Origin: Pseudomonadota bacterium
Lineage (GTDB): Bacteria; Pseudomonadota; Gammaproteobacteria; Burkholderiales; Burkholderiaceae_C
Reading direction: 5' to 3'
DNA: 39,337 bases
NCBI GenBank assembly: GCA_018241325.1
Contig: JAFEEB010000075.1
Location: forward strand, 1 to 39,337
The notes under the pieces were generated by a model. That model worked only from the letters and a program-made list of their open reading frames with translations. It was not told the DNA's origin and searched no databases. The position numbers were made by a program, and so were the translations under genes. Shown one piece after another: positions 764 through 34,109 of the stretch; position 1 is the stretch's first letter; each line of letters begins with the position of its first letter.

Positions 764-1597
764 ATGGAACGCATCGAACACCACGCCAGCTTTGGCGGCC
801 GGCAAGAGGTGTGGCAGCACGCCAGCCGCAGCACCGGCACGCCGATGAAGTTCGGCATCTACCTGCCCGAGGCGGCGGTGCGCGGCCAGAAGTGCCCGGT
901 GCTGTACTGGCTGTCGGGCCTGACCTGCACCGAACAGAACTTCATCACCAAGGCCGGCGCGCAGCAGCACGCGGCGCGGCACGGCCTGATCGTGGTGGCG
1001 CCCGACACCAGCCCGCGCGGCGTCGATGTGGCCGACGACGCGGCCTATGACCTGGGCCAGGGCGCGGGCTTCTACCTCAACGCAACGCAGCAGCCCTGGG
1101 CCGCGCACTACCGCATGCAGGACTACGTGGCGCGCGAACTGCCGGCGCTCGTCGAGCAGCACTTTGCGGCCACCGATGCGCGCTCGATCTTCGGCCACAG
1201 CATGGGCGGGCACGGCGCGCTCGTCACCGCGCTGCGCCATCCGGGGCGGTATCGCAGCGTGTCGGCCTTTGCACCCATTGCCGCGCCGGCGCAGGTGCCT
1301 TGGGGGCAAAAGGCACTGACGGCGTATCTGGGCGAAGACCCCAAGGCGTGGGCCGAGTGGGACGCCGCGGCGCTGATTGCCCAAGCGCGCAGCGAACGCC
1401 TGCCGCTGCTGATCGACCAGGGCGAGGCCGACGAATTCCTGCCGCAGCTGCGCCCGGATTTGCTGCAGGCGGCGTGCGCCCGAGTGGGTCACCCGATCAC
1501 CCTGCGCATGCAGCCGGGCTACGACCACAGCTACTACTTCATCGCCAGCTTCATGGGCGAGCACGTGGCGCATCACGCGGCGGCGCTGCGCGGGTGA
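764..1597 (+). CDS. fghA: S-formylglutathione hydrolase
   Basis: This 277-residue cytosolic serine esterase hydrolyses S-formylglutathione to formate and glutathione, the second step of glutathione-dependent formaldehyde detoxification. It has the esterase D layout: an SGLTC oxyanion-region motif (51-55), nucleophile Ser146 in GHSMGG, Asp223 in the GEADEFL segment, and His255 in GYDHSYYF. Length matches the family (about 280). The partner alcohol dehydrogenase (adhC/frmA), usually adjacent, is not in this window and may lie upstream of base 1. A GGGAGC ribosome site sits at 752-757, inside the end of the preceding gene, which ends 2 bases upstream. Assignment is secure from the complete catalytic triad and family-specific motifs. 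Confidence 0.96.
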   Translation: MERIEHHASFGGRQEVWQHASRSTGTPMKFGIYLPEAAVRGQKCPVLYWLSGLTCTEQNFITKAGAQQHAARHGLIVVAPDTSPRGVDVADDAAYDLGQGAGFYLNATQQPWAAHYRMQDYVARELPALVEQHFAATDARSIFGHSMGGHGALVTALRHPGRYRSVSAFAPIAAPAQVPWGQKALTAYLGEDPKAWAEWDAAALIAQARSERLPLLIDQGEADEFLPQLRPDLLQAACARVGHPITLRMQPGYDHSYYFIASFMGEHVAHHAAALRG

Positions 1598-1609: not shown

Positions 1610-1792
1610 TTGGGGGCCGAACGTCGGGTTTTCGTGCCTCAACCCGACCTACGAAGACTTTGGGCGGCGTGCAACGCAGTCGGTCGAGTTGGCGAAGCGC
1701 AACCCGACGTAGTCCTGAAATGATAGCTGTCGTCGCTTGCCCATCAAGCGCTACAACCCTGTAGGTTGGGTTGGCGAAGCGTCACCCGACAT
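1610..1792. repeat. Cluster of short intergenic palindromic repeats
   Basis: The space after fghA contains three related units. GTCGGGTT and AACCCGAC form a hairpin at about 1622-1648. TTGGCGAAGCGCAACCCGAC lies at about 1690-1709. GGTTGGGTTGGCGAAGCGTC followed by ACCCGAC lies at about 1764-1790. These belong to a type of REP-like repeat (GTAGGTTGGGTTnGCGAAGC) that I recall as common in beta- and gammaproteobacteria. A copy of the AGCT/GCGC repeat family lies between the second and third units. The region sits between convergent genes, so the hairpins could also help terminate transcription. Confidence 0.65.
1714..1760 (+). repeat. AGCT/GCGC repeat family, copy A (intergenic)
   Basis: The core runs from AGCT (1725) to GCGC (ending 1751), 27 bases, with the palindrome CGCTTG-CCCAT-CAAGCG inside. 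The same 27-base spacing occurs in the copies inside the MFS, parB and moaC genes. It is embedded among the GTCGGGTT repeats. Confidence 0.6.
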
Positions 1793-1846: not shown

Positions 1847-2860
1847 TCAGTAATTGACGACCACCGTCACCGTGTCGCTGTAGCTGTCGGGCTGATAGTC
1901 GGCCGAGGGCGCGCGCACGTACACCGTGTGGGATTTGGCGACGCCGGTGCCGCTGCCGGCCACGCCGTTGCCGGCGCTGGAGGCCGTGGCGGTATTGCCC
2001 CAGAGGGTGGTCATGCCGGCGTTCTGGTACAGCTGATACGGCACCTTGTCGGTGTTGCCCGGGGGGGCGGACATCAGGCCGGCGCCCACGGTGCTGTTGT
2101 TGGACGGACGCAGGCCGACGTAATACGGCGTGGTGTTGCTGCAGGTGATGCTGATGTTGCCGTTGTTGGCAACGTTGGCGGCGCTGGCGGGGACGGTGCC
2201 CAGGTCGACGTCGGAGACGGCGTTCACCACGCATTGCTTGGTGACGGTGGCGCTGACGGTGAAGGGGAAATAGCTGCCTTGATAGGTGCTGGGGCAGGTG
2301 CTCGGAGGGGTGCTGCCCATGACCGCGTTGATCGAAATGGCGGTGTCCACCTGTTGATAGACGTCGGCGTAGCTGCCAGGGATCGCACCCGTTTGCCCGC
2401 CAATGACGCGGCCGTACAGCGGGATCGTGCCGCTGGTCCTGGAGCTGGCGCCGCTGCTCCCGGACAGGGTGAACTGCACAGATGCGGGCGTGGCCGAACC
2501 AAAGCCGTAGCTGCCCCAGATCAGCGTGGTGCGGCCGGGATCCTGGTAGAGCTGGAACTGCAAGGTGTTGGAGCCGCTCAGCATCAGCCGCGGGTTCCAT
2601 TGCCGGCCGAACGGTTCACCGATGTGAAAACACACCATGGCGGAATCGGTTCCACCGTCGTTCTTGCTGCAGCTGTAGCTCAGAGTCGCACTGCCGTCGG
2701 TCTGACTCGACAGCGGGTTGACGGGGCCGAAATTGACGTCGGTCATCGTGGCGGAGCAAGTGAGGACAGCGTGTGCCGGAGCGCTGGCCAGCATCGACAC
2801 CAGCAGCACACCGATGGCGGGCAGCGTGCCGATAAAAAGGGATCGCAGCGACAGTTTCAT
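1847..2860 (-). CDS. Two-domain spore coat U protein, CsuE-like pilus tip adhesin
   Basis: A secreted 337-residue protein with a signal peptide (residues 1-31, ending APAHA) and two tandem spore-coat-protein-U (SCPU) domains, about 32-175 and 195-337. Each domain starts with a Cys-containing strand, and the protein ends with a donor-type strand (SDTVTVVVNY). The second domain has the family's VPYQLYQN and WGNT segments. Two SCPU domains and about 340 residues are what is known for CsuE, the tip adhesin of archaic (Csu) chaperone-usher pili; single-domain members are shaft pilins. The start codon overlaps the usher stop as ATGA, implying translational coupling. It is the last gene of the operon. 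The adhesin role is inferred from family and position. Confidence 0.88.
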   Translation of the reverse strand: MKLSLRSLFIGTLPAIGVLLVSMLASAPAHAVLTCSATMTDVNFGPVNPLSSQTDGSATLSYSCSKNDGGTDSAMVCFHIGEPFGRQWNPRLMLSGSNTLQFQLYQDPGRTTLIWGSYGFGSATPASVQFTLSGSSGASSRTSGTIPLYGRVIGGQTGAIPGSYADVYQQVDTAISINAVMGSTPPSTCPSTYQGSYFPFTVSATVTKQCVVNAVSDVDLGTVPASAANVANNGNISITCSNTTPYYVGLRPSNNSTVGAGLMSAPPGNTDKVPYQLYQNAGMTTLWGNTATASSAGNGVAGSGTGVAKSHTVYVRAPSADYQPDSYSDTVTVVVNY

Positions 2861-12511: not shown

Positions 12512-13744
12512 ATGACCGCACCTGCCGCAGCGCCTGGCCCCGCGCCCGTTTTCCTGGCCCTGGCGCTGTCGCTGGGCGCGGCCGTGTCGCTGGGCATCAC
12601 GCGCTTTGCCTACGGGCTGCTGCTGCCGGTGATGAAGAGCGACCTGGCCTGGAGCTACACGCTGGCCGGCGCGATGAACACCGTCAACGCCGCGGGCTAC
12701 CTGCTGGGCGCGCTCGTCACGCCGTGGCTGCTCAAACGCCTGGGCGCCGCGCGGGTGCTGCTGTGGGGCGCCGTGCTGGCCAGCGTGTTCATGGCGCTGT
12801 CGGGCTTTTTCATCGATGCGGCGCCGCTGCTGCTGCAACGCCTGCTGGCGGGCGTGGCCAGCGCTTTCGTGTTCATCGCCGGCGGGCTGCTGGCGGCCCG
12901 GCTGGGCACGCGCGCGCCGCAGCAGGCCGGCTTGCTGCTGGGCCTGTACTACGGCGGCGTGGGCTGGGGCATTGCGCTGTCGGCGCTGGGCGTGCCGCTG
13001 CTGCTGGAGGCCGCGCGCGGCGTGGCGCATGGCTGGGCCTGGGCCTGGTGGGGCATGGCGCTGCTCTGCCTGGTGGCCACGGCGGTGCTGGCGTGGCCGG
13101 CCAGAATACTACAAAAACAGGAGCTGGTTGCGCAGTCTGGACAAGCGCCAGAACCTCATTTGATTAAAAAAATATCATGGCGGTCGATGGCCTGGGCGCT
13201 GGCGGGCTACACGCTGTTCGGCGTGGGCTACATCGGCTACATGACCTTCGTGATCGCCCTGCTGCGCGAGCAGGGCGCCAGCGCCGGCGCGGTCACGCTG
13301 TTCTACACCCTGCTGGGCCTGGCGGTGGTGGCCTCGGCGCGCATCTGGGCGCGCCTGCTGGACCGCGCCCAGGGCGGCGGCGCGCTGGCGCTGCTCAACG
13401 CCCTGCTGGGCCTGGCCACCGTGCTGCCGGCGCTGACGGCGGCGTGGCCGGTGGTGCTGGCCTCGGGCCTGCTGTTTGGCGCGGTGTTTTTGTCGCTGGT
13501 GGCGTCCACCACCGCCTTCGTGCGGCACAACCTGCCCAGCGCGCAGTGGGCGGCGGGCATCAGCGCCTTCACCATCGTGTTCGCCTTCGGCCAGATCGTG
13601 GGGCCCACCGTGGTGGGCTGGATCGCCGACGGCCCGGGCGGGCTGGCGCGCGGCCTGCTGTATTCGGCCGGCGCGCTGTGGCTGGGCGCGCTGGTGGCGT
13701 GGCGGCAAAGGCCGCTGGCGCAGCGGCCGGTCGCGCCGGTCTAG
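12512..13744 (+). CDS. MFS transporter, YbfB/YjiJ family
   Basis: A 410-residue inner membrane transporter with about 12 hydrophobic segments, of the YbfB/YjiJ branch of the major facilitator superfamily. The start LSLGAAVSLGITRFAYGLLLP (about 16-36) is characteristic of that branch. Substrate unknown. Between the sixth and seventh membrane segments (about residues 198-222) lies a polar stretch, LQKQELVAQSGQAPEPHLIKK, encoded by an AT-rich 65-70 base segment that matches a repeat found also in parB and moaC. The frame is intact through it. The last base of the stop codon is also the first base of the MITE-like element that follows. No strong ribosome site is visible. Confidence 0.9.
   Translation: MTAPAAAPGPAPVFLALALSLGAAVSLGITRFAYGLLLPVMKSDLAWSYTLAGAMNTVNAAGYLLGALVTPWLLKRLGAARVLLWGAVLASVFMALSGFFIDAAPLLLQRLLAGVASAFVFIAGGLLAARLGTRAPQQAGLLLGLYYGGVGWGIALSALGVPLLLEAARGVAHGWAWAWWGMALLCLVATAVLAWPARILQKQELVAQSGQAPEPHLIKKISWRSMAWALAGYTLFGVGYIGYMTFVIALLREQGASAGAVTLFYTLLGLAVVASARIWARLLDRAQGGGALALLNALLGLATVLPALTAAWPVVLASGLLFGAVFLSLVASTTAFVRHNLPSAQWAAGISAFTIVFAFGQIVGPTVVGWIADGPGGLARGLLYSAGALWLGALVAWRQRPLAQRPVAPV
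13105..13172 (+). repeat. AGCT/GCGC repeat family, copy B, in frame inside the MFS gene
   Basis: The core AGCTGGTTGCGC (13122-13133), 11 bases, then GCGC (ending 13148) is flanked by A/T-rich arms (ACAAAAACAGG before, CATTTGATTAAAAAAAT after) that stand out sharply from the surrounding GC-rich codons. The 12-base AGCTGGTTGCGC is identical to the copy in parB read on the opposite strand. Confidence 0.75.
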
Positions 13745-17389: not shown

Positions 17390-18700
17390 TCAGGGATAGA
17401 GCCCGCGCAGGTCGCGCGCGTTCAGGATGCGCGTGCAGGCGACGATGTAGGCGGCGGTGCGCAGGCTGACCTGGTGCTCCTGCGCCGTTTGCCAGACGGC
17501 GTCAAAGGCGTGCTTCATGATGCCGACCAGGCGCCGGTTGATCTCGTCCTCGTCCCAGAAGAAGCTGGAAAAGTCCTGCACCCACTCGAAGTAGCTGACG
17601 GTGACGCCGCCGGCGTTGGCGATGACGTCGGGCACCACCAGCACGCCCTTGTCGTGCAGGATGTCGTCGGCCTCGGGGGTGGTGGGGCCGTTGGCGCCTT
17701 CGATCAGCATCTTGGCCTTGATCTTTCCGGCGTTGGCCTGCGTGACCTGGCCTTCCAGCGCGGCGGGCACCATGATGTCGCACTTGCAGGACCAGAAGTC
17801 GGCCGGCGTGATGGTTTCGCCGCCCTTGAAGCCGGCCACGCCGCCGGTCTTGGCCACGTGCTCCAGCAGCTTGGGCACGGCCAGGCCCTTGTCGTTGGCC
17901 ACGCCGCCGGTGTGGTCCTGCACGGCCACCACCAGCGCGCCGGCCTCGGCAAACAGCTTGCCGGCAATGCCGCCGACGTTGCCGAAACCCTGCACGGCCA
18001 CGCGCGCGCCCTCGATGGGCAGGCCGATCTGCTTGGCCGCCTCGCAGGCCACGGTGAACACGCCGCGCCCGGTGGCCTCCTTGCGGCCCAGCGAGCCGCC
18101 CATGTCGATGGGCTTGCCGGTAACCACGCCGGTGGCGGTGGAGCCGACGTTCATGGAGTAGGTGTCCATCATCCAGGCCATGATCTTGTCGTTGGTGTTG
18201 ACGTCGGGCGCGGGGATGTCCTTGCTGGGGCCGATGATGATGCCGATCTCGCTGGTGTAGCGGCGCGTCAGGCGCTCCAGCTCCTTGTGCGAGAGCGTGC
18301 GCGGATCGACGCGGATGCCGCCCTTGGCGCCGCCGTAGGGCACGTTGACGGCGGCGTTCTTGATCGACATCCAGGCCGACAGGGCCATCACCTCGGACAG
18401 CGTCACGTCCTGGTGAAAGCGCACGCCGCCCTTGCCGGGGCCGCGGCTGGTGTTGTGCTGCACGCGGTAGCCCTCGAAGTGGGCGATGGTGCCGTTGTCC
18501 AGCTCGATGGGCACGTCCACGATCAGCGCGCGCTTGGGGCGCTTGAGCGTCTCGACCCAGCGCGACAGAGGGCCCAGGTAGGGCGTGACGCGGTCGATCT
18601 GCTGCAGGTAGATGCCCCAGGGGCCCAGATGCTTGGGATCGAGGTAGGACGGCAGGGCGTGCGTGGTGGACACCGGCGCCGCGGATTTGGCTGTGGCCAT
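17390..18700 (-). CDS. gdhA: Glutamate dehydrogenase (Glu/Leu/Phe/Val dehydrogenase family)
   Basis: A 436-residue cytosolic enzyme that interconverts glutamate and 2-oxoglutarate plus ammonia. The substrate domain has [13 protein letters not shown] (88-99) and [15 protein letters not shown] (119-133) with catalytic Lys126. The NAD(P) domain has GRGV and the dinucleotide motif GFGNVGG (238-244). The C-terminal [31 protein letters not shown] and DLRGLYP are family standards. Length fits the hexameric 420-450 residue class. Cofactor preference is not certain from sequence. An AGGAGA ribosome site precedes the ATG at 18700. It is divergent from mnmG across 249 bases. Confidence 0.95.
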
Positions 18701-18835
18701 GAGAGAGTCTCCTTGTTCAAACCGCCGCCCCTCGGTCGTGCTGCGGAGGCGACGCTCCCATTGTCTCGCAGGACACGGCGCCGGCTGCGGTGCGGCGGCT
18801 TTCCCGCGTCGGCGACCGGTTCTTGCGCCGACGCT

Positions 18836-18897
18836 ATGTAATTGATAGCTGCCGACGGCATGCTGCCCGCGCGAACAGCCTCAACGCCTATAAAATA
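18836..18897 (+). repeat. AGCT/GCGC repeat family, copy E, in the mnmG promoter region
   Basis: AATTGATAGCTGC (18840-18852), a degenerate palindrome, then AACAGCCTCAA and an A/T-rich tail resemble the other copies, with the core one base shorter. The tail includes GCCTATAAAATAGGC; TATAAA (18889-18894) is a good -10 box candidate about 55 bases before the mnmG start. No convincing -35 is seen. Confidence 0.45.
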
Positions 18898-18949: not shown

Positions 18950-20932
18950 GTGACTTCCTACATCCATCCCCAGCATTTCGACGTGATCGTGGTCGGTGGC
19001 GGCCATGCCGGCACCGAGGCGGCGCTGGCCGCCGCGCGCATGGGCGCGCAAACCCTGCTGCTCACGCACAACATCGAAACCCTGGGGCAGATGAGCTGCA
19101 ACCCCAGCATTGGCGGCATCGGCAAGGGCCACCTGGTGCGCGAGGTGGACGCGCTGGGCGGGGCGATGGCCCTGGCCACGGACGAGGCGGGCATCCAGTT
19201 TCGCATCCTGAACAGCAGCAAGGGCCCCGCCGTGCGCGCCACGCGCGCGCAGGCCGATCGGGTGCTCTACAAGGCTGCCATTCGCCGCCGGCTGGAGAAC
19301 CAGCCCAAGCTGCTGCTGTTTCAGCAGGCGGTGGACGACCTGCTGCTGGAGGGCGACCGGGTGGTGGGCGCCGTCACGCAGGCTGGCATTGCCTTCAGGG
19401 CGCGCGCCGTGGTGCTGACGGCGGGCACTTTTCTGGACGGGCGCATCCATGTCGGTCTGGACAACTACCAGGCCGGCCGCGCGGGCGACCCGCCCGCCAT
19501 CAGCCTGTCGGCGCGCCTGAAGGAGCTGAAGCTGCCGCAGGGTCGCCTGAAGACCGGCACGCCGCCGCGCCTGGACGGCCGCACCATCGACTTCAGCCTT
19601 TGCTCCGCGCAGCCGGGCGACGGCATGCCCGGCGGGCAGGGTAGCGCGATGCCGGTGTTCAGCTTCATGGGGCGCGCGGACATGCACCCGCGCCAGCTGC
19701 CATGCTGGATCACGCACACCAACGCGCGCACGCACGACATCATCCGCTCGGGCTTTGACCGCAGCCCCATGTTCACCGGCAAGATCGAGGGCGTGGGCCC
19801 GCGCTATTGCCCCAGCGTGGAAGACAAGATCAACCGCTTTGCCGGCAAGGACAGCCACCAGATCTTTCTGGAGCCCGAGGGCCTGGACACGCACGAGGTG
19901 TATCCCAACGGCATTTCGACCAGCCTGCCGTTCGACATCCAGTACCAGCTGGTGCGCAGCATCGCGGGCCTGGAGAACGCGCACATCCTGCGGCCGGGCT
20001 ACGCGATCGAGTACGACTACTTCGATCCGCGCGCCCTCAAGAGCAGCTTCGAGACGCGGCAGATCGCCGGCCTGTTCTTTGCCGGCCAGATCAACGGGAC
20101 CACGGGTTACGAAGAGGCGGCAGCCCAGGGCCTGTTTGCCGGCATCAATGCGGCGCTGCTGTGCCGGGGCGAGCCGGCATGGCTGCCCGGCCGCGACGAG
20201 GCCTATCTGGGCGTGCTGGTGGACGACTTGATCACCAAGGGCGTGACCGAGCCCTACCGCATGTTCACCAGCCGGGCCGAATACCGCCTGCAGCTGCGCG
20301 AGGACAACGCCGACATGCGCTTGACCGAAACCGGTCGCCGCCTGGGCCTGGTGGACGATGCGCGCTGGGACGCCTTCAATCGCAAGCGCGATGCGGTTTC
20401 ACGTGAAACCGAGCGGCTCAAGTCGGTTTGGGTCAATCCCGCGAACCTGCCGGCCGAGGAGTCGGCGCGTGTCCTGGGCAAGGCCATCGAGCACGAACAC
20501 AATCTGTTCGACTTGCTGCGCCGCCCCGACGTGGGCTATGCGGATTTGACGGGCATGAACGCCGGCCAGTACGCCAGCGCCGATGTTTCACGTGAAACCT
20601 TGGGCGATCTCGCCAAGGCCGTGATCGAGCAGGTGGAGATCGCGGCCAAATACTCGGGCTATATCGACCGTCAGCGCGACGAGGTGGAGCGCGCCGCGCA
20701 TCAGGAAGCGATGCGCCTGCCGGCCGACCTGGACTACATGCAGGTCGGGGCGCTGTCGATCGAGGTCCGCCAAAAGCTGCAAAAGCACCGGCCCGACACC
20801 TTGGGGCAGGCGTCGCGCATTTCGGGGGTTACCCCGGCGGCGATTTCCTTGCTGCTGATCCACCTGAAGAAAAAAGGCGGCCTGGCGGCATTGCAGGCGG
20901 GTTCACCGGCGCTGGGCGCCCGCGTCGCGTGA
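18950..20932 (+). CDS. mnmG: tRNA uridine-5-carboxymethylaminomethyl modification enzyme MnmG (GidA)
   Basis: The 660-residue FAD protein works with MnmE to make the cmnm5 modification at tRNA wobble uridines. The FAD motif [19 protein letters not shown] (14-32), [34 protein letters not shown], the [18 protein letters not shown] segment and the C-terminal helical MnmE-binding region are all present. Slightly longer than the E. coli protein (629). It starts with GTG at 18950, preceded by CGGAG. Codons around residues 482-487 and 545-550 (VSRET both times) are made of parS-like sequences. The last four bases, GTGA, also hold the rsmG start. Together these mark the classical origin-linked mnmG-rsmG operon. 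Confidence 0.98.
20395..20410. other. parS: parS-like centromere site 1, inside mnmG
   Basis: GGTTTCACGTGAAACC is a perfect 16-bp palindrome differing from the consensus TGTTnCACGTGAAACA only at its two outermost bases. It is read as codons for VSRET. It would bind the ParB encoded at 25316. Confidence 0.8.
20584..20599. other. parS: parS-like centromere site 2, inside mnmG
   Basis: TGTTTCACGTGAAACC matches the parS consensus at 15 of 16 positions and lies 189 bases (centre to centre) from site 1. It again encodes VSRET in the mnmG frame. Confidence 0.88.
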
Positions 20933-25315: not shown

Positions 25316-26275
25316 ATGGTCACCAAAAAACCCAAGGGCCTGGGCCGCGGCCTGGACGCGCTGCTCGGTCCCGCCGCCCCCGCCCCCGACGCGGCGGCCA
25401 CGGCGGCCGGCACGCCCATGATGCTGGCCCTGGACGAGATGGGCCCCGGCCAGTACCAGCCGCGCACGCGCATGGACGAAGGCGCGCTCTACGAGCTGGC
25501 CGAGTCCATCAAGGCGCAGGGCATCATGCAGCCGATCCTGGTGCGGCGCATTTCTGAGTCAAAAGTGGCTCCAGCGCGCGACGGACAAGCGCAACCAGCT
25601 ATTGATTCGAGAGCAAACTACGAGATCATCGCCGGCGAACGCCGCTTTCGCGCCGCCCGGCTGGCCGGCCTGGCCGAGGTGCCCGTGCTGGTGCGCGACG
25701 TGCCCGACGAGGCCGCCGCCGCCATGGCGCTGATCGAGAACATCCAGCGCGAAGACCTGAACCCGCTCGAAGAAGCGCAGGGCCTGCAACGTCTGATCCG
25801 CGAATTCGGCCTGACGCACGAGCAGGCCGCCCAGGCCGTGGGCCGCAGCCGCAGCGCCGCCAGCAACCTGCTGCGCCTGCTGCAACTGACCGAGCCGGTG
25901 CAAACCATGCTGATGGCCGGCGATCTGGACATGGGCCATGCCCGCGCCCTGCTCACGCTGGACGGCGCCGCGCAAATCACCGCCGCCAACCAGGTCGCGG
26001 CGCGCAAGCTCAGCGTGCGCGAGGCCGAGGCGCTGGCGCGCAAGCTGTCGGCCGAGTTCAACCTCACGGCCCCGCGCAAGCCCGCCGGCGCGCCCGACAA
26101 GTCCGGCGACGTGCGCCGCGTCGAGGAAGAGTTGTCGGACCTGCTGATGGCGCAGGTCGAGGTGCGCGTCAAGAAGTCCGGCCGGCGCAGCGATGCGCAG
26201 GCGGGCGAGCTGGCGATCGCGTTTGCCTCGCTGGACGAGCTCAACGGCCTGATCGAGCGCCTGCGCGGGCCGTAG
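25316..26275 (+). CDS. parB: Chromosome partitioning protein ParB (Spo0J) with an inserted segment
   Basis: A 319-residue ParB. It has the ParA-interacting start KPKGLGRGLDALLG (6-19), the N-terminal CTP-binding domain with QYQPRTRMDE (47-55), QGIMQPILVR (68-77), YEIIAGERRFRAARLAGL (102-119) and ENIQREDLNPLEEAQG, then the DNA-binding helices with THEQAAQAVGRSRSAASNLLRLLQL, and a C-terminal dimer domain. Between strand ILVRR and YEIIAGERR are about 22 extra residues (79-101; ISESKVAPARDGQAQPAIDS and RAN), where other ParBs have 4-6. They are encoded by a repeat-family copy. GGAGGAG at 25302-25308 is an excellent ribosome site. Three parS sites lie 3.8-4.9 kb upstream. Confidence 0.97.
   Translation: MVTKKPKGLGRGLDALLGPAAPAPDAAATAAGTPMMLALDEMGPGQYQPRTRMDEGALYELAESIKAQGIMQPILVRRISESKVAPARDGQAQPAIDSRANYEIIAGERRFRAARLAGLAEVPVLVRDVPDEAAAAMALIENIQREDLNPLEEAQGLQRLIREFGLTHEQAAQAVGRSRSAASNLLRLLQLTEPVQTMLMAGDLDMGHARALLTLDGAAQITAANQVAARKLSVREAEALARKLSAEFNLTAPRKPAGAPDKSGDVRRVEEELSDLLMAQVEVRVKKSGRRSDAQAGELAIAFASLDELNGLIERLRGP
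25551..25612 (-). repeat. AGCT/GCGC repeat family, copy C, in frame inside parB
   Basis: Read on the minus strand: AGCTGGTTGCGC (25600-25589), 11 bases, then GCGC (ending 25574), giving the same 27-base core as the copies in the MFS gene and moaC. It is flanked by GAATCAAT on one side and GGAGCCACTTTTGACTC on the other. The 12-base AGCTGGTTGCGC is identical to the MFS copy. Confidence 0.75.
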
Positions 26276-32042: not shown

Positions 32043-32558
32043 ATGCCCGCTGCCCACGCTCCCCTGACCCACTTCGACGCCCAAGGCCAGGCCCACATGG
32101 TCGATGTGGGCGACAAGCCCGCCACACACCGGGTGGCGGTGGCCGGCGGGCGCATCGAAATGCAGCCGGCCACGCTGGCGCTGATCGAATCGGGCAACGC
32201 CAAAAAGGGCGACGTGCTGGGCATCGCGCGCGTTGCCGGCATCATGGCGGCCAAGAAGACGAGTGACTTGATCCCGCTGTGCCACCCCTTGGCCCTGTCG
32301 CGCGTCGCTATCGATTTTGAAGCTACTCGCGCAGACCCAACAAGCGCCGCAGCCGTTTTTTGCACTGCAACCGTGGAGACGACCGGGCCCACGGGGGTGG
32401 AGATGGAAGCGCTCACCGCCGTGCAGGTGGCGCTGCTGACCATCTACGACATGGCCAAGGCAGTGGACCGGGGCATGACCATCACCGGCGTGCGCCTGCT
32501 GGAAAAGCGCGGCGGCAAGTCGGGACACTTCAAGGCTGCGGGTCCGACGTCGGCGTAG
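32043..32558 (+). CDS. moaC: Cyclic pyranopterin monophosphate synthase MoaC
   Basis: A 171-residue enzyme of molybdenum cofactor biosynthesis; it converts the MoaA product to cyclic pyranopterin monophosphate. Signature segments: [21 protein letters not shown] (8-28), [18 protein letters not shown] (71-88) with the conserved [13 protein letters not shown] (117-127), [11 protein letters not shown] (135-145), and KRGGKSGHF (155-163). Between LSRVAIDF and CTATVETTG the loop is several residues longer than in the E. coli protein and is encoded by a repeat-family copy (32308-32362). No other mo-gene is adjacent. It ends 15 bases from the convergent ligase gene. Confidence 0.97.
32308..32362 (+). 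repeat. AGCT/GCGC repeat family, copy D, in frame inside moaC
   Basis: ATCGATTTTGA, then the core AGCTACTCGCGC (32321-32332), 11 bases and GCGC (ending 32347), then CGCAGCCGTTTTTTG. The core length (27) equals that in the MFS and parB copies, and the flanking T runs correspond. It is translated as about [17 protein letters not shown]. Confidence 0.65.
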
Positions 32559-32573: not shown

Positions 32574-34109
32574 TCAGCGCGCGGACGGACGGGCGGCGCT
32601 GGCGGCGCCTTGCAGGGCGCGCGCGCCCTCCAGCATGCGCCGGTTGTCCTCGGCCCATTGGCGCTCCTCCACGGGAAACGCCGCCTTGAACCGCGCCAGA
32701 TGCGCCAGCGCCAAGTCCTCGCGGCCCAGCAGGGTGGCGCTTTCGATCACGCGTTCGATCACGCGCGGCTCGGGCGAGTAGTGCAGCAGGCGGCTGGCGG
32801 CCTCCAGCATCCAGGCGGCGTTCTCGCGCGTCGCGGGGCGGGTGGTGACCTCGGCAAACCGCACCGCGCCGCCAAACAGCAGCGTCTGGCGTGCCGCCGC
32901 CATGGGCTCGTCGCGCCAGCGGGCGGCGCGCTGCTCAAGAGGCAGATAGATCTGGCTGACGCGCCAGTAGTCCCAACCCGCATACGCGGTGGCCCCCAGC
33001 ATGGCGAGCGCCAGGCCCAGGCGCGCGCTCGTGAACGCGCTGCGGGCCCGCGTCGGGCTCGCCGATTTGCGCGAGGCCCACAGCAGGCCCACGCTGATCG
33101 CCGCCGCGATCTGAAACGGCCCGTACCACAGGGGGTACTCCACCAAGCTGTGCAGCCCGATGGCCGCCAGCACCGCCCAGGCCAGCTGGCGCGTGGCGTC
33201 GGGCTCGCGCCAGGGCGCACCGCGCCACACCGCCCAGGCCAGGGCCGCGCACACCGCCAGCGCCACCGGCACGCCCAGCTCCACCGCCAGGTGCAGCGGC
33301 AGGTTGTGCGCGTTGTCCAGGATGTGGCAAAAGCGCGGGCCGCCATACAGCGTGATGTAGTGCGCGTAGGACAGCTCGCCCCAGCCCCAGCCCGTCCAGG
33401 GCTTTTGCGCGATCAGGTGCAGCACGTTGCTCCACAGGATCACGCGGCTGCCGCAGGTGCTCTCGGCGGTGCGCAGGCGCTCGAGCACGTCGCGCCCGGC
33501 CACGCCCTCGGCGGTCTCGGCCAGCCAGGGCAGCACCAGCGCTGCCACGGCATACAGCAGCAGCGCCGCCACGGCGGCCCCCAGCACGACGCGCCAGCGC
33601 CCGCTGGCGCGCGCCCAGCCCAGCGCCAGCAGGGCCAGCGCCGCCAGCTCGACCATGCCGATGCGCGACGCCGTGGCCGCCAGCGCCGCCACCAGCAAGG
33701 CGGCCAGGGCGGCGCAGGGCGCAGCCGGCCAGCGCGCCGTTTGCAGCTGCATGCGCAGCGCCGCCAGGCCGATCACCAGCAGCGTGGCCAGCTGATTGGG
33801 CTGGCGCAGGTTGCCAAACGCCTGTCCGGGTTGCGCCAGATCGACCCAGGGGTACAAGGGGCCCTCCAGGTCGAAGTACTGCAACAGCGCGATCACGGCG
33901 CTCACCACCGCCGCCAGCAGCCAGCCCGTGGCCACCCAGTGCACGGCCTGCCGCGGGTCCTGCCGCGCGGGCCACAGCGCCAGCAGCAGGGCCGCCAGGG
34001 CCATCGACGCCAGATAGGGCTGCGTGCCTGCCGTGGGCCCCGAGGTGAAGGGCCACAGCCAGGGCAGGGCCAGCACGGCAATCAAGAGCAGACGATGGGC
34101 GGCGGGCAT
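32574..34109 (-). CDS. PglL-type O-oligosaccharyltransferase / Wzy-like polymerase
   Basis: A 511-residue polytopic membrane protein with about 11 membrane segments, of the O-antigen ligase/Wzy superfamily. The periplasmic-loop landmarks GNLRQPNQLATLLV (99-112), a SRIG segment (148-151), SRVILWSNVLHLIAQKPWTGWGWGEL (221-246) and DNAHNLPLHLAVELG (265-279, with His268) match the PglL branch that glycosylates pilins and other periplasmic proteins. A soluble C-terminal part (about 400-511) resembles the Wzy_C_2/virulence-factor polymerase C-terminal region. Transfer to protein versus glycan polymerisation cannot be told from sequence. It follows the CHASE2 cyclase gene by 43 bases on the same strand. 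Confidence 0.88.
   Translation of the reverse strand: MPAAHRLLLIAVLALPWLWPFTSGPTAGTQPYLASMALAALLLALWPARQDPRQAVHWVATGWLLAAVVSAVIALLQYFDLEGPLYPWVDLAQPGQAFGNLRQPNQLATLLVIGLAALRMQLQTARWPAAPCAALAALLVAALAATASRIGMVELAALALLALGWARASGRWRVVLGAAVAALLLYAVAALVLPWLAETAEGVAGRDVLERLRTAESTCGSRVILWSNVLHLIAQKPWTGWGWGELSYAHYITLYGGPRFCHILDNAHNLPLHLAVELGVPVALAVCAALAWAVWRGAPWREPDATRQLAWAVLAAIGLHSLVEYPLWYGPFQIAAAISVGLLWASRKSASPTRARSAFTSARLGLALAMLGATAYAGWDYWRVSQIYLPLEQRAARWRDEPMAAARQTLLFGGAVRFAEVTTRPATRENAAWMLEAASRLLHYSPEPRVIERVIESATLLGREDLALAHLARFKAAFPVEERQWAEDNRRMLEGARALQGAASAARPSAR

Follow-up and report, generated by a model that had tools for sequence, protein, structure and literature searches.

A dispersed 70-bp hairpin-forming repeat in Comamonadaceae-type genomes, with some copies in frame within genes

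REP elements form hairpins, are present in many copies, lie mostly outside genes and are rare between divergent genes, and their head is of the GTAG type. In Rickettsia, the palindromic elements known as RPE measure ~150 bp according to a review, and one passage of this review places nearly half of the copies within genes. MITEs are given in a passage of PMC10969869 as short, non-autonomous and dispersed, and in-frame fusions of them occur. BRE, a repeat of 75-91 bp of Bordetella that is also found in Comamonadaceae, is presented in passages of PMC3110155 as usually intergenic with some copies in coding sequences; up to 29 copies are reported there for Polaromonas JS666. The Bordetella copies have a mean G+C of 69.0%, a value higher than that of the genome as a whole, and tandem arrays are found at some loci.

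The DNA analysed here, referred to as the window, is the whole stretch of 39,337 nucleotides (contig JAFEEB010000075.1, assembly GCA_018241325.1). An earlier note on it had described one repeat family of five segments sharing the motif AGCT-N4-GCGC-N11-GCGC, three of them in frame in unrelated genes and two intergenic, and had compared it with RPE. The motif has 4 matches in the window against a mean of 0.13 in 100 shuffles, and it is present in exact form in the segments called B, C and E and absent from A and D. The fourth match (33623-33649) is GC-rich, unrelated coding sequence within the gene at 32574-34109, and hence the motif alone is not diagnostic. The 12-mer described as common to B and C is real, and the A/T richness of the segments was confirmed, since the five have 41-53% G+C versus 70% in the window. 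The scan of the window against Rfam gave 0 matches at gathering score.

Genomes were searched with a longer core chosen against circularity, GATAGCT-N4-GCGCTT-N(5,9)-AAGCGC, which has 25 matches in the window's own genome and 0 for the reversed control. A sequence-only profile (R1) was built from 24 of these 25 aligned genome copies (the 28-base one was omitted), none of them from the window, and the window was searched with it with the filters off. Copy A (1711..1762, + strand; 33.5 bits, E 8.2e-10) is intergenic, with a gene at 764-1597 (+) on one side and a gene at 1847-2860 (-) on the other. Copy B (13105..13172, +; R1 match 13122-13171, 23.7 bits, E 9.2e-7) lies in frame near the middle of the protein encoded by an MFS_4/YbfB-type transporter gene (12512..13744, +; Pfam PF06779, E 2.7e-59). 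Copy C (25551..25615; 29.4 bits, E 1.5e-8) has the element on the minus strand and is in frame in parB (25316..26275, +; Pfam ParB_N, HTH_ParB and ParB_C), with QPILVR before it and YEIIAGERR after it. Copy E (32313..32362, +; 15.3 bits, E 4e-4) is a weak element-like stretch within moaC (32043..32558, +; Pfam MoaC, E 5.3e-56). Copy D (18833..18853, +; 12.1 bits, E 4.1e-3) is intergenic, flanked by a Glu/Leu/Phe/Val dehydrogenase gene (17390-18700, -) and by another gene (18950-20932, +); its likeness to the element is confined to 21 nt of the 5' part, and it is at best an element fragment. The three host genes and the two intergenic positions named in the earlier note agree with the Pfam domains and the gene predictions, and its family of five is narrowed down to three clear members by an independent profile (A, B and C), a weak one and a fragment.

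The genome search with a profile, which had been proposed as a check, returned more copies than expected by chance. In the own genome (3.82 Mb in 93 contigs), R1 finds at least 150 copies, as all the 150 scored candidates pass E<=1, the weakest one at 2e-5. This number is a lower bound because copy A, absent from the 150, outscores some of them; C is the only window copy included. Genome G455 also has at least 150 copies by R1 at E<=1e-4. The repeat unit was delimited with 143 exact-core copies from the own genome, the named genomes and possibly a few other loci of the genus. It is 70 bp long and has sharp ends: counted from the G of GATAGCT, conserved positions run from -15 to +54, with background beyond; as the copies were selected on 19 fixed bases, the core appears more conserved than it really is. 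The unit is A/T-rich outside the hairpin. Folding of the consensus gives -23.3 kcal/mol (z -3.5), and one of the copies (L016) presents a 15-bp hairpin (z -5.9), with the window copies folded alone at z -1.0 (A), -0.8 (B), -0.7 (C) and +0.6 (E). In the outer stem no pair covaries clearly above permutation, the inner stem being fixed by the selection pattern. The 143 copies, drawn from many genomes, are well diverged from each other: the best pair is 87% identical, the median nearest neighbour 74%, and there are no near-identical copies among them, in a sample that would reveal recent copying within a single genome only in part. No clear terminal inverted repeats were found in these copies, nor any target-site duplication with fixed ends, some of which could be concealed by shifted ends.

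It should also be mentioned that the hairpin loop (5 nt, element positions 18-22) is found in both orientations among the 143 copies, as ATGGA in 16 and as TCCAT in 6. The loop has a reverse complement that also occurs in 92/143 copies, against a mean of 54.5 and a maximum of 74 in 2000 column shuffles; a position-specific Markov control attains this figure in 41/2000. Within one genome such loops are 56/91, with a column-shuffle maximum of 54 (5000), and here the Markov control attains the value in 1843/5000. Inversion of the loop, as template switching might give, is a suggestion on which the controls disagree.

Concerning its taxonomic range, the repeat is restricted to one family in the samples taken. 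Among 150 genomes of the GTDB family, sampled at completeness >=90, the core is present in 21 and the control in none. In a set of 26 relatives it was found in 9 of the 16 genomes of the genus and in 0 of the 10 from other families, and 8 of 12 further genus genomes carry it. The exact-core count within the genus ranges from 0 to 143, several genomes having 0. A scan of the class with R1 at E<=1e-7, with stricter filters and 18 candidates scored per genome, recovered 2/274 genomes, the own one and G224, from the same family; the other 272, including G107 of the same family, gave nothing at this threshold, at which weak copies could be missed. The scan of named genomes gave at least 119 stretches; among the matches listed, all are from Acidovorax, Comamonas, Ottowia, Simplicispira, Giesbergeria, Alicycliphilus, Paenacidovorax and Diaphorobacter or from MAGs with broader labels, one of these labelled Rubrivivax. 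The link with Comamonadaceae, brought up in the earlier note, is supported, since the named carriers of the core are Comamonadaceae-type genera. In phage records the consensus gives nothing at E<=0.1. Separately, 48 stretches from IMG/VR (L272-L319) hold the exact core in viral or proviral contigs, in which host flanks are not separated from phage DNA.

For the genomic context, genes were predicted by a simple finder whose training set was the repeat-bearing loci themselves (coding fraction 0.88); because these loci had been selected for the repeat, the background is not entirely independent. Of 153 exact-core copies, 9 near a locus end and 2 without a neighbour on one side were left out. Classified by their core, the remaining 142 copies comprise 8 within genes and 134 outside them, where the neighbouring genes are tandem for 92, convergent for 34 and divergent for 8. 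For random points, 86% fall within genes, and the intergenic ones are 1663 tandem, 351 convergent and 527 divergent. The copies are thus in excess between convergent genes and scarce within genes and between divergent ones (p 2e-6 for the convergent excess and divergent avoidance versus random intergenic points). Their orientation between tandem genes is even (50 vs 42, p 0.47). When the whole 70-bp unit is considered (141 copies), 8 are within a gene, 62 are wholly intergenic, 56 hold the predicted stop of a neighbour and 19 a predicted start, so about half of them overlap a gene end or start.

Regarding the copies inside genes, the 19 residues at the insert in ParB are absent from the solved structure 7bnk and also from 7bnr (two alignments from the 12 distinct chains found). 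In the 25 genus orthologues that cover the site, a set that omits L197 (site not covered) and the paralogue L201, the loop is longer in most and short in five (L189, L193, L194, L196 and L199). R1 recognises the parB element in 8/25 of them at E<=0.003, the window's own included, the others being diverged. Our reading is a single insertion, old and inherited, that some lineages lack or have lost. In the MFS transporter, the 16 genus orthologues covering the site are all equal in length within one residue, in a comparison that covers the genus only, and R1 recognises the element in 5/16 (E<=0.01). For moaC it is recognised in 2/23 orthologues (E 0.002 and 0.014). MoaC at copy E is 4 residues longer than 1ekr and 2 longer than 2eey, and with a difference of only 2-4 residues from two solved MoaC proteins and a weak score, no insertion is claimed in this gene. 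Of the three unrelated genes in which in-frame copies had been described, ParB and the MFS transporter stand, and moaC is left with a weakly scored stretch and weak evidence of insertion; the comparison of orthologues suggested in the same note yielded long and short loops in ParB only.

The frame is also open through the copies in MutL and in a LytTR response regulator, located between domains in each, and through exact-core copies in UvrA, a UvrD-like helicase and an SDR. All six genic copies on the opposite strand read A-L-x-x-(Q/K)-A-x-x-A-I, and those on the same strand are read in other frames. A Giesbergeria MAG has a further exact-core copy close to the 3' end of its gene for a GpA-type terminase (L092:836-894). 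Two exact-core genic copies are in lpxB, and the lpxB genes of Acidovorax, a MAG and Simplicispira present an element-like stretch at the same position (loci L071:3064-3112, L067:1857-1906 and L082:7809-7838); R1 scores for two of them are 40.9 and 43.9 bits. This stretch is not an insertion, because the LpxB of the MAG, the one protein compared, aligns to the solved 5w8n there without a gap; it may be a coincidence extended by the choice of hits, the product of conversion, or the source of the repeat.

Several explanations could account for these observations. Chance matches limited to the window would be compatible with the low scores of D and E and with the exact motif match that proved to be unrelated coding sequence. 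For A, B and C this reading is refuted, as they match a window-free profile at E 1e-6 to 1e-9 and the genome has 25 exact cores vs 0 in the control; it could still apply to D and E, and as an account of the whole it is extremely improbable. A different possibility is a functional cis element at gene ends, such as an mRNA 3'-end stabiliser, a bidirectional terminator or a protein-binding site, kept by selection. The hairpin-forming consensus is in line with it, as are the excess between convergent and the scarcity between divergent genes. This explanation can be confronted with two species of the genus, G283 and G455, which are collinear over about 125 kb in pieces that are 86-99% identical. 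From 64 hits, 44 were examined (>=18.5 bits, after removal of the echoes that a palindrome gives on the opposite strand). For 35 the two flanks could be located, and in 23 of these cases the gap between them in the other genome is equally long (+-1); the 35 hits come from both genomes, so one place may count twice. The remaining aligned hits face in some cases a diverged copy plus extra DNA and in others different DNA, and no clean empty site was found between G283 and G455 among the aligned hits with both flanks. GATAGCT is identical between orthologues at 79/84 positions. Moreover, the comparison of 40 exact-core loci of G283 with the best 30 of G455 gave 10 flank-matched pairs, and 10/10 keep a recognisable element on both sides, both of which were preselected as copies; these two results would also agree with a cis element. 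However, in 12 shared pairs (for the most part weak copies, among them the one in parB) the positions of high and low information diverge equally (319/360 and 423/480 identical, p 0.91). Divergence is greater in the element than in its flanks, which are largely coding (742/840 vs 1801/1912 identical). The unbiased tandem orientation and the exact-core count of 0 in several genomes of the genus also speak against it, and a selected cis element is considered improbable. The even decay fits decay after an old insertion and goes against strong selection, and an old non-autonomous mobile repeat fits because many copies are common to both species and are decaying evenly.

As for the mobiliser, hairpin DNA would naturally point to a Y1 (IS200/RAYT-type) transposase, which is doubtful here since the tests do not favour it. 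If the copies were REP elements mobilised by a host RAYT (REP-associated tyrosine transposase), the hairpin and the location bias would be expected, and RAYT-like genes are indeed present in the own genome (NF047646, 77.1 bits, with a cut-off of 80) and in G452, another Ottowia (82.5 bits). Furthermore, in L257 the RAYT gene (1446-2150) ends inside the element (2137-2193), and L248:2156-2218 and L253:2153-2207 are elements in a similar place, where a RAYT-like gene ends or close to it; these are 3 of the 30 Y1 loci searched, from three Ottowia genomes. Nevertheless, the presence of RAYT does not separate genomes with the repeat from those without it. In other genera it was found in 16/18 genomes with the repeat vs 15/18 without, a comparison in which 11/36 genomes exceed the family cut-off, and in Ottowia in 11/14 genomes with >=7 copies vs 7/15 with <=2 (p 0.13; two genomes with IS200-like genes only were scored as without RAYT). 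G446 has 28 copies and no Y1 match, and the RAYT loci of repeat-bearing genomes in other genera hold a copy in only 2/16 cases, both weak. Mobilisation by RAYT is accordingly unlikely, and RAYT was rejected as a proven mobiliser because its presence does not discriminate; no enzyme tied to the repeat was identified from the presence of RAYT or Y1 across genomes with and without it. The repeat could also be the published betaproteobacterial repeat element BRE (Hot et al. 2011), whose length of 75-91 bp, Comamonadaceae hosts and intergenic location with some coding copies are close to what is observed here, according to passages of PMC3110155. The 69.0% G+C and the tandem arrays given in them contrast with copies that are A/T-rich, 70 bp long and more numerous, and by these descriptions the identity of both repeats is quite improbable. 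In the open literature searched, no published description of this repeat was recognised and BRE, from those passages of PMC3110155, was the nearest; a prior description is possible.

The repeat is most probably a lineage-restricted family of non-autonomous, hairpin-forming dispersed repeats of 70 bp, similar to REP elements or MITEs. In the samples studied it has a unit with sharp ends, a hairpin-forming consensus, a high copy number, persistence with even decay and some in-frame copies. The copies would have spread long ago by transposition of hairpin DNA, with the enzyme supplied elsewhere, and the location bias may reflect selection against copies in promoters and coding regions. The in-frame copies could persist because all they add is a short peptide at loops and linkers, read in a frame that is by chance free of stops.

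The most interesting lead is the presence of the repeat in cassettes of resistance integrons. Six plasmid records have a consensus match at E<=0.01, and two of them are outside Comamonadaceae, from E. coli and Vibrio anguillarum. The match is in an ORF flanked by dfrA12 and aadA2 in the E. coli plasmid and in an ORF flanked by qacEdelta1 and blaOXA-2 in the V. anguillarum plasmid; both loci contain intI1 and both ORFs are annotated as DUF1010. R1 gives 44 bits for each of these cassettes, 37.4 bits for the common form of the first one, again beside dfrA12 and an aadA gene, 32 bits for relatives beside blaOXA-2 and aadA13, and 21 bits for one beside blaGES-5. In the plasmid collection, 44 and 37.4 bits correspond to E of about 1e-7 and 1e-5, with a rough model calibration. 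The repeat is located in the DUF1010 cassettes at L436:2990-3052, L437:2998-3052, L439:409-471, L440:415-466, L441:304-355 and L442:501-549, and the six aligned cassettes are alike over the element and towards the 3' end. The first cassette is present in 1842 plasmid records (1749 at 95-99%), with its neighbours known only among the matches listed, and in 771/5426 E. coli genomes; the consensus gave nothing in E. coli genomes at E<=1, a weak negative because this common cassette was missed too. The cassette between dfr12 and aadA2 is named gcuF in a review passage. DUF1010 cassettes are reported on blaGES-5 integrons in a passage of PMC11616780 (42/195 cassettes), and in an attC-based study of cassette origin a search for the letters gcu gave one occurrence, as gcuG (PMC8352920).

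The Pfam model of DUF1010 (PF06231) matches two cassette ORFs with 98.4 and 92.1 bits (curated cut-off 25). In both, the model starts at the residue where the translated element starts; the element spans about the first 21 of the 66 model positions, and the remainder is outside the repeat. Nine peptides from genome copies, chosen by eye from 45 frames (of 217) through these copies after a tenth was dropped, were also compared, and 6/9 match the start of DUF1010 with E between 5e-5 and 0.04, none of them reaching the cut-off, with no match for 3/9. These data give hints that DUF1010 cassettes may have come from Comamonadaceae. We see about an even chance that a repeat that is a signature of Comamonadaceae travelled into clinical class 1 integrons, that the cassettes formed in that group and that Pfam DUF1010 is partly translated repeat; under this explanation, the cassettes would have formed in a Comamonadaceae genome because each DUF1010 cassette carries an embedded copy. 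No copy among the 143 resembles the cassette copies by more than 78-84%, and the closest ones come from Acidovorax and Ottowia alike, which counts against a claim on the donor. That the repeat began as an lpxB fragment would be a bolder extension of the integron explanation, and it finds little support.

These results delimit a repeat of a common environmental group that reaches at least 150 copies in both of the profile-searched genomes, and it would explain the odd A/T-rich insertion in ParB. It could serve as a marker for DNA that left the group, including integron cassettes on hospital plasmids, and it points to translated repeat as a part of one Pfam family of unknown function. It also provides a second setting, besides Rickettsia, for asking how repeat insertions turn into protein sequence.

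Compared with the known families, the repeat resembles RPE, in the terms of the review passages, in being a short palindromic dispersed repeat with some copies in frame in unrelated genes. It differs in its length, 70 bp and thus about half of ~150 bp, in being genic in only 8/142 exact-core copies (134/142 cores are outside genes), and in its use of several frames and both orientations. By these descriptions, the comparison with Rickettsia made in the earlier note holds as an analogy and not as membership. The repeat shares with REP elements that have a RAYT the hairpin, the many copies, the mostly extragenic location and the rarity between divergent genes, but no exclusive link to RAYT was found for it and its consensus has no GTAG-type head. 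Like MITEs, as given in PMC10969869, it is short, non-autonomous and dispersed, with in-frame copies, and it differs from them in that neither clear terminal inverted repeats nor target-site duplications were found. BRE overlaps with it in host group, has a similar length and is usually intergenic with some copies in genes, whereas in Bordetella it is G+C-rich and partly in tandem in the passages of PMC3110155, a separation made by description. The short palindromic repeat is real, group-specific and probably old, its in-frame copies are occasional, and it is new unless it proves to be BRE.
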